Positions 2,741 through 51,095 of a stretch of DNA of 64,000 nucleotides are shown here, piece after piece. Both the position numbers and the translations under genes were made by a program. Source of the stretch: Thermalbibacter longus (GTDB taxonomy: Bacteria > Chloroflexota > Chloroflexia > Thermomicrobiales > Thermomicrobiaceae); the NCBI RefSeq assembly GCF_023806485.1, contig NZ_JAMSLR010000006.1, forward strand, positions 1 to 64,000, in the 5' to 3' direction. Under the pieces are notes generated by a model. That model had not been told where the DNA came from and made no database searches. It saw nothing but the letters and a program-made list of their open reading frames with translations. Positions within the stretch are counted from its first letter, which is position 1, and each line of letters opens with the position of its first letter.

Positions 2741-5635
<2,895 letters not shown>

Positions 5636-49286: not shown

Positions 49287-51095
49287 TCACTCGGCGTGGG
49301 TGGGAATATCGGTGGAATGCTGCTGCCCGTCCCAGCTATAGCCCCAGAAGTGCCAGCGGAACGCCTCCACCAGGCTGCGCAGCGTCGCCGAGATGTTCTG
49401 CGGGATCGGCCGGCCGTCGGCCGAGAACCAGGGATCGATCGGCTGCGGGCCGGTGACGACCGTGGCATGAGTCGGCAGCTCGGGATGAGGCCGGCCGTCC
49501 CAGGACTGGCCGTAGAAGTGCCAGCGGAAGGCTTCGACGAGCGCCTTGAGCGAGCGAGAGACGGTGTCTGCCTTCATTCGCCCATCGGCGGTGAACCAGT
49601 GACCCTCGGCGGCCAGCGGCGAGACGACGAAGCCCCAGGTCACCGTCAGCGCCTCGCCGCGCGCGTTCTGCACCCGCGCGCTCACGGCGTAGCTCCCAGC
49701 GGCCAGCGTGCGCTCGGTGAAGGCGGTCTGGTCGGTATCGCTCGGCCCGCCGACCTCGGTGTCGAGCGGCTGGCCGTTCAGCCAGAGCTGGAAGCTCGTG
49801 ATCGGAGCGCCGGAGGTCACGTGCGCTGCGATCCGCACTGGGCCCGGCGAGAGCGTCGCGTAGCGGGAAGGAGCGAGGGCGTCGAAGCGGATCGAGCCAG
49901 CCGAGACCTGGGCATGGGTCGGCATCTCGCCGTGGTAGAAGCCATCCCACGACTCACCGTACAGGTGCCAGCGGAACGCCTCCACCAGGCTGCGCAGCGT
50001 CGCCTCGACTTCGGCTCGTCGGGGAGTACCGTCGGCCAGGAACCACCAGCTATCGTTCGGGTTGTTGGAGACGACGAACTGCCACATGGTCCGGAAGGTT
50101 TGGCCGGACCGATCCTCGGCGGTCGCCAGCACCTGGTACAGCCCTGGCTGGAGCCGGATCCCAGTAAAGGCGCTGAGCTGGAAGGCGTTGGGGCCGGCGA
50201 TCTCCGGCGCCAGCTCCTGGCCATTGAGCGTCATCGTGACCCGCGTGATCGGGCTGCTGCTGCGGACGTTGACCGCAACCGTCACCTCGCCCGGCGCCAC
50301 CGTGCTCCAGGGAGCGGGGGTAAGGTTCGTAAAGGTAAGCGGCCCGCCAGGAATCCCTCTTCGGCTGGTCACTACCCCGGTCGACTCGAAATCCCAGGCG
50401 ATCGTCGTCGTGCTGTAGGCAATGCTGAGCGCGTCGACGGCACCCTGCCAGGACGACCAGGAGACGCCGCTGAGACAGCCCGCTGCCACGACCAGCGCGC
50501 CGGTGTCGTCGTTGGCCAGCGTCGCGTTGGGATAGGCGTCCAGGTAGACGCTCAGCGGCTGCGGGTTCGCCTGCGTCATGCCGGCGCGCCCGTTCAGCGA
50601 CCACCAGACGCCCTCGAGCGCGTCCCAGGTCTGCCACTCGATCGGGACGACGGTGTCGTTGAGGTGCGGCAGGTACACGAGCTGGTCATCCGGTAGGCCG
50701 TCGTCGTTCAGGTCGACCTGGAGCATGAGGTACGGAGCCGCCTGCGTACCACCGGTGACGACGAAGGTGGAGTAGGTCAGGTTGTGCAGGCTGGCGAGCG
50801 GAACGCCGTCGAGCCCGCCCTGGTGGAGTTGCAGCCAGGCGAGCCCATCGCTCGCCGTGCTGAAGACAAAGCTCCCACTTCCGTTCAGGGGCACGCCGGG
50901 GCCGTTCTCGAAACCGCCTGTCCCGTATCCACCGCCGGCCGGGCACGCCAGGAGCGTGAACTCCCACCCGTCGCTCGACACCTGGGCCAACGCGCTCCGC
51001 GGTGCCCAAGCGGCGCCCATCGCCAACCCCAGCACAAGCGCTACAACGCAGGCCAAGCCGGCGCGGCCTGCGTTCCCCCGAGCCCCGATCCCCAT
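49287..51095 (-). CDS. secreted protein with three unrecognised SWDG repeats
   Basis: A 602-residue exported protein with signal peptide (LACVVALVLGLAMGAAWA). The first 270 or so residues are a beta-rich domain resembling a substrate- or carbohydrate-binding fold. Two Ig-like segments follow (APGEVTVAVNV...ITRVTMTLNGQELAPEIAG and its partner SPGPVRIAAHV...FQLWLNGQPL). Interleaved are three copies of a roughly 45-residue unit: WF-x-ADG, an L-x-x-LVEAFRWH helix, then G-x-SWDG-x-x-H-x-x-x-PTHA, the last at the C-terminus. I do not recognise this unit. ATG 51095 has GGGAGG upstream. A surface or matrix protein is likely. Confidence 0.78.
   Translation of the reverse strand: MGIGARGNAGRAGLACVVALVLGLAMGAAWAPRSALAQVSSDGWEFTLLACPAGGGYGTGGFENGPGVPLNGSGSFVFSTASDGLAWLQLHQGGLDGVPLASLHNLTYSTFVVTGGTQAAPYLMLQVDLNDDGLPDDQLVYLPHLNDTVVPIEWQTWDALEGVWWSLNGRAGMTQANPQPLSVYLDAYPNATLANDDTGALVVAAGCLSGVSWSSWQGAVDALSIAYSTTTIAWDFESTGVVTSRRGIPGGPLTFTNLTPAPWSTVAPGEVTVAVNVRSSSPITRVTMTLNGQELAPEIAGPNAFQLSAFTGIRLQPGLYQVLATAEDRSGQTFRTMWQFVVSNNPNDSWWFLADGTPRRAEVEATLRSLVEAFRWHLYGESWDGFYHGEMPTHAQVSAGSIRFDALAPSRYATLSPGPVRIAAHVTSGAPITSFQLWLNGQPLDTEVGGPSDTDQTAFTERTLAAGSYAVSARVQNARGEALTVTWGFVVSPLAAEGHWFTADGRMKADTVSRSLKALVEAFRWHFYGQSWDGRPHPELPTHATVVTGPQPIDPWFSADGRPIPQNISATLRSLVEAFRWHFWGYSWDGQQHSTDIPTHAE

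Follow-up and report, generated by a model that had tools for sequence, protein, structure and literature searches.

The SWDG unit, a repeat that occurs three times in a secreted-looking protein of Thermalbibacter longus, is a real, unnamed and lineage-specific domain family without known relatives in the libraries used. The three copies form a cassette common to several kinds of secreted protein, a feature that is not visible from a single window (the window being the whole stretch of 64,000 nucleotides that was analysed). The general kind, repeated surface-attachment modules, is already known, and we put about even chances on the triplet being a retention module by which secreted proteins stay attached to the wall or surface layer.

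The repeats and their host protein

The host gene (P0001) starts with an ATG at 51095, preceded by a good ribosome-binding sequence, GGGAGG, and stops at 49287. The first-pass annotation had given the range 49287-51095 for the repeats; this is the gene that holds them, and the units themselves occupy only the segments A, B and C in the following list:

49287..51095, reverse strand: open reading frame P0001, 602 amino acids, secreted-looking
50985..51095, reverse strand: signal peptide, residues 1-37, a hydrophobic stretch then ALA-Q, read by eye
50355..50984, reverse strand: N-terminal region, some 210 residues long and modelled mainly as beta strands
50067..50348, reverse strand: Ig-like domain 1 (Big_7), from Pfam and the model; in structure it best matches the Ig-like domain of sulfite oxidases
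49908..50054, reverse strand: SWDG repeat A, from alignment and profile
49620..49895, reverse strand: Ig-like domain 2, between A and B, from the model, a structural match and the 100-residue gap
49461..49607, reverse strand: SWDG repeat B, from alignment and profile
49290..49442, reverse strand: SWDG repeat C, from alignment and profile, ending at the last residue of P0001
48500..49174, reverse strand: putative lipoprotein gene (by eye), directly downstream of P0001, with no Pfam family

The copies align over 52 columns, 24 of them invariant among A, B and C. Identity to copy 1 in this alignment is 55% for copy 2 and 61% for copy 3, and the genome search gives 60% and 63% for B and A against C; over a 63-nucleotide core, the DNA identity of the copies to the reference copy is 65% and 83%. 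The pairwise copy alignment score is 158, compared with at most 49 in shuffles (1000 per pair). A profile of the repeat scores the three copies at 90.7, 92.1 and 97.2 bits, values that are high partly by construction because the profile contains these copies; nowhere else in the six-frame window does the score exceed 6.4 bits, and 50 shuffled windows reach 10.9 at most. The observation of three repeats is thereby confirmed, with a likeness between copies far beyond chance, and the unit, at first estimated at about 45 residues, measures about 48-49. The alternation with Ig-like segments holds for the order Ig-A-Ig-B but not beyond it: B and C are separated by 6 residues, and only A and B have an Ig-like domain between them. 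The first Ig-like domain exceeds the Pfam cut-off for Big_7 (PF17957; 32.5 bits against 24.1), as do its counterparts in two other proteins (35.9 in L039 and 29.1 in L037); the cut-off is unmet in L043 and L014, and Big_7 is not listed by Pfam for L002, L044 or L048. The second Ig-like domain has a sub-cut-off Pfam match only (PKD). No Pfam family was found for the N-terminal region in the search of P0001, and model confidence is low over its first 50 residues. This region holds a WQTWDAL..WWS stretch that, by eye, is common to Sphaerobacter and Thermomicrobium-type proteins of the P0001 kind.

The unit had been described as unrecognised, and the searches bear this out. Pfam was run on P0001, the protease described below, six further proteins and 37 repeat copies; the copies gave scattered weak matches only, to 10 families (best E 0.0055, at most three copies each). 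NCBIfam returned one match for the whole of P0001, at E 0.42. Among PDB sequences there was none for P0001, and one for the repeat profile (E 1.7, a 13-residue stretch of LRC5). None of these searches of Pfam, NCBIfam and PDB sequences gave the repeat a credible family. Viral contigs and plasmids were likewise without a relative of the repeat, and a mobile origin was set aside on these grounds. A whole-word search for 'SWDG' in the PMC literature led to unrelated papers only; within the PMC literature searched the repeat was not found in print, the matches dealing with envelope, taxonomy or unrelated topics.

The predicted structure comes mainly from a relative. AlphaFold2 modelled the contiguous ABC array of L046, a protease whose array lies at 3983-4480, from a 14-row alignment with a pLDDT of 91.0 and a pTM of 0.85, a confident prediction of a compact fold with one 20-residue helix per repeat (at 16-35, 72-91 and 128-147) and with SWDG..H...PTHA located in long loops. 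Foldseek compared this model with 350,542 PDB chains (best E 0.79), VIA-align with 44 chains (none with Z of at least 2), and a search of a viral fold library gave a best E of 4.2; if the model holds, the array is possibly a fold without a solved relative. The full-length P0001 model has a pLDDT of 75.4 and a pTM of 0.55, with helices at the same places and a poor N-terminus. Because of this pTM and of the Ig-like domain between A and B, the compact triplet rests on the array of the relative and not on P0001. The Ig-like domains of P0001 are well modelled, the best match being the sulfite oxidase Ig-like domain (Z 11.9, rmsd 2.3, 95 residues); the structural matches listed are to the Ig-like domains (model residues 213-456), a result that covers neither the N-terminal region nor the repeats.

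A three-copy array shared by unrelated catalytic domains

The source genome encodes one more three-copy protein, a trypsin-like protease of 583 amino acids on contig C23 (Trypsin, E 3.8e-13). In a profile search of 61 genomes (the source and 60 relatives), the repeat turned up in 14 of 21 family genomes, the source included. The seven family genomes without it include all five of one genus, two of those five being 98% complete; two other genomes among the 61 gave weak single matches that were counted as chance. A search of 158 genomes of the class added one further carrier, G149 (Chloroflexota), besides a weak match in G042. In the phylum, a sample of 400 genomes drawn from a larger group contained eight carriers, all in the same family. 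Finally, a scan of genome contigs with one peptide pattern returned 15 loci, named Thermomicrobium, Sphaerobacter, Thermomicrobiaceae, HRbin27, HRbin28 and, in one case, 'Chloroflexi bacterium'; since a single pattern was used, distant relatives outside Chloroflexota may be missed.

The match in G042 (L022 and L067, one genome; E 0.001 and 0.0007) scores 20-21 bits. Although this exceeds the best shuffled window (10.9) by a wide margin, with 158 genomes searched the match is probably due to chance. In L022 (G042:C11:10764-10901), the sequence SWQGMQHPDMATHTA resembles the loop of the repeat and the protein is glycoside-hydrolase-like by eye; this, too, is probably chance. Three other matches were dropped: one in G038 (19 residues with an internal stop), one in G008:C6 (E 0.008) and L007 (E 0.75).

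Three copies are present in 24 of 25 distinct arrays, and in 24 of 25 just 0-4 residues separate the last copy from the C-terminus. The two-copy exception (L013/L051) is titled Thermomicrobium; by eye its second copy has the start of B and the end of C, as if a deletion had joined the two. Gaps between copies are 6-10 residues, save in eight window-type proteins that have 100-101 residues between A and B; the A-B spacer of the window protein is its second Ig-like domain, and an Ig-like A-B spacer was counted in 8 of the 25 arrays. An Ig-like segment before A aligns in 15 of 15 rows of the array protein alignment.

The same array is attached to unrelated catalytic domains. The 25 arrays belong to 13 trypsin-like proteases, one Amidase_3 protein and 11 Ig/beta-rich proteins, the last being those without a protease or amidase motif. 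Twelve of the protease calls are by sequence motif, and L013, which the motif missed, was called by eye; three proteins were confirmed by Pfam. In L044 the array is internal and is followed by 227 residues holding an N-acetylmuramoyl-L-alanine amidase domain (Amidase_3, PF01520; E 2.4e-37, 129.1 bits against a curated cut-off of 27). The amidase fusion is known from one genome, L044 and G149 carrying the same array.

Selection on the repeats and inheritance of the triplet

The repeats are under purifying selection. Between the window protein and L037, dS/dN is 0.588/0.017 for A, 0.331/0.017 for B, 0.226/0.044 for C and 0.281/0.054 for the intervening Ig-like domain, that is, dN/dS of about 0.03, about 0.05, 0.19 and 0.19, respectively. 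Between the window protein and L038, the values are 0.580/0.025 (A), 0.420/0.034 (B), 0.343/0.044 (C) and 0.309/0.046 (Ig), and between L037 and L038, 0.128/0.008, 0.086/0.034, 0.245/0.016 and 0.150/0.019, with B less constrained in this last pair (dN/dS about 0.40). The protease array of the source genome gives 0.548/0.063 against L046 and 0.421/0.039 against L047. Throughout, dN/dS is below 0.5; A is always tighter than the Ig-like domain, B and C not always.

In a comparison of the copies of 24 triplets, the division into positions A, B and C appears to predate the species. Within one protein type, copies average 71% identity at the same position and 57% at different positions; between protein types the values are 58% and 54%, a small difference, and copies within one protein share 56%, in a comparison that includes near relatives. 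The greater likeness of same-position copies suggests that all three were inherited together, as a unit.

In two Sphaerobacter-type genomes the arrays of adjacent protease genes are nearly identical. Adjoining protease genes of Sphaerobacter sp. HOG56 (L042; 2213-4141 and 4347-6149) have arrays identical at 493 of 495 nucleotides, and beyond the array the two proteases are identical at 185 of 368 aligned residues (50%; first 100 and 60 residues excluded), identity being lost within about 100 nucleotides upstream of the array. Near-identical arrays in otherwise divergent proteases mark the array as a separate cassette. In the protease-gene pair of G004 the arrays are identical at 474 of 486 nucleotides, a figure that covers the array only. 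Array pairs within a genome (474/486, 485/486) are more alike than arrays compared between L042 and G004 (455/486, in four of four pairs). Gene conversion limited to the array, acting independently in the two genomes, is a likely explanation that would give such identities; recent copying of the array also fits.

Wall retention and its alternatives

In the mechanism that we favour, SWDG proteins would be exported, as the signal peptide suggests, and the three repeats would fold into a single compact unit with one long helix each. The exposed SWDGxxHxxxPTHA loops would then attach non-covalently to some component of the wall or surface layer, keeping at the cell surface whatever domain is joined to them, whether trypsin-like protease, N-acetylmuramoyl-L-alanine amidase or, in the window, the beta-rich/Ig protein. 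The main functional pointer to the wall is the amidase fusion, because the wall is the substrate of the amidase, and for a module that terminates proteases and is fused to an amidase, holding secreted proteins on the wall is the simplest reading. Largely the same observations would be expected from substrate binding or self-assembly.

Several known systems offer a comparison. SLH repeats are helical, about 50 residues long and present in three copies that end secreted proteins with varied catalytic domains, and they form a three-pronged spindle. The SWDG repeats resemble those of SLH (PF00395) in length, number, terminal place, varied catalytic domains and helical content; they differ in that the model gives each repeat a single long helix, where SLH has more, and in lacking, by eye, the TRAE motif. 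Homology, an idea that arose from comparing G-x-SWDG..PTHAE with the SLH motif, is rejected on sequence, which leaves an analogy: SLH is not among the Pfam matches of the 37 copies, and with hhalign, against a small, home-made profile of ten SLH copies from relatives, the repeat gave 0.4% probability over 5 columns and the ABC array 0.2% over 18. SLH entries account for none of Foldseek's 15 PDB matches to the array model, all at E >0.7, with which a shared fold is still compatible. CWB2, GW and choline-binding repeats are non-covalent wall-binding modules on amidases and proteases; the likeness of CWB2 (PF04122) and the other two lies in repeated modules beside amidase or protease domains, and none of these families is among the 10 weak Pfam families matched by the 37 copies. 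LysM (PF01476), which binds glycan chains, is also a small wall-binding module and is found in the same genomes, but it is absent from those Pfam matches. By analogy with SLH or CWB2 triplets, we infer that the SWDG triplet would work in a similar way, with no sequence relationship detected.

The known chemistry of related walls gives this some context. According to parts of PMC2615216, T. roseum has little peptidoglycan, galactosamine replacing glucosamine and a protein-dominated wall, and parts of PMC3035262 describe the wall of Sphaerobacter thermophilus as unusually protein-rich; the type strains with studied walls are not among the named repeat loci. SLH was found in one of 13 family genomes searched. 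Sortase genes and LysM genes are each present in 13 of the 13 family genomes examined, so other attachment routes exist. A bolder proposal strikes us as possible but doubtful: that the triplet has a new fold and, as an attachment module, defines a separate surface-display system of Thermomicrobium/Sphaerobacter-type Chloroflexota, suited to a protein-rich wall and filling the role of SLH triplets, its array having spread between secreted enzymes by gene conversion.

The first-pass annotation had suggested a carbohydrate-, metal- or hydroxyproline-type binding module. The general idea of a binding module suits the conservation of Trp, His and Asp and the domain company (protease, amidase). A metal site is possible, though the His of SWDGxxH is missing from some copies (B of L043 and C of L048-L050); all 37 aligned copies, by comparison, keep the His of RWH. 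Nothing in the analysis speaks for hydroxyproline. Trp-rich loops bearing Asp and His are typical of sugar contacts, and with loops of this composition and a variety of attached enzymes the triplet could be a substrate-targeting carbohydrate-binding module, bringing its enzyme to an external polysaccharide or glycoprotein. We consider this unlikely: a glycoside hydrolase is present in none of the eight Pfam-scanned proteins, and the strict three-copy layout and near-confinement to one family better suit a ligand in the cell's own envelope.

Alternatively, the triplet could be a structural or self-assembly module that pairs with other copies, or with a lipoprotein partner, to form a protein layer, in keeping with the protein-rich walls reported for related bacteria in parts of PMC2615216 and PMC3035262. 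Downstream of P0001, on the same strand, lie in order the putative lipoprotein gene, an ECF sigma factor gene (Pfam), a probable anti-sigma gene (called by eye, without a Pfam match) and an ABC transporter ATPase gene (Pfam). The lipoprotein gene adjoins the window-type gene in seven of seven loci from three genera (the window, L037, L038, L040, L043=L101, L100 and L092), making the lipoprotein a possible partner of the window-type SWDG protein. Its profile, however, found nothing in six Thermomicrobium-type loci (L093-L098, L098 with only 1.2 kb downstream) or beside the protease, Ig-only (L039) and amidase (L044) genes searched; among the Thermomicrobium-type loci listed, the next gene is, by eye, an IMP dehydrogenase-like one on the opposite strand. 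Proteases also carry the array, a point against this reading, as is composition: Glu does not rank among the nine most frequent residues of the window protein in its mature form, in contrast to the major wall protein of T. roseum, which parts of PMC2615216 describe as rich in Gly, Pro, Glu and Ala. Self-assembly thus seems to us a rather poor prospect.

Finally, the triplet could be a C-terminal signal for sorting or processing that the machinery of export or attachment recognises and cuts off, like type IX C-terminal domains or sortase signals. This would suit the terminal place of 24 of 25 arrays and the presence of sortase genes, but it is very improbable given the internal array of L044, with its amidase still to follow, and a contiguous array of about 165 residues that has three well-kept copies and, by eye, no LPXTG or hydrophobic tail.

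Returning to retention at the wall, the unnamed domain would be added to family databases, perhaps with a fold that has no solved relative if the model holds, and the array could find use both as a wall-polymer probe and for display, as a tag that withstands heat. The envelope of these thermophiles has long been puzzling: the accounts given in parts of PMC2615216 and PMC3035262 describe peptidoglycan that is scarce or atypical and a wall dominated by protein. A well-kept module shared by secreted enzymes offers a handle on how proteins are retained there.
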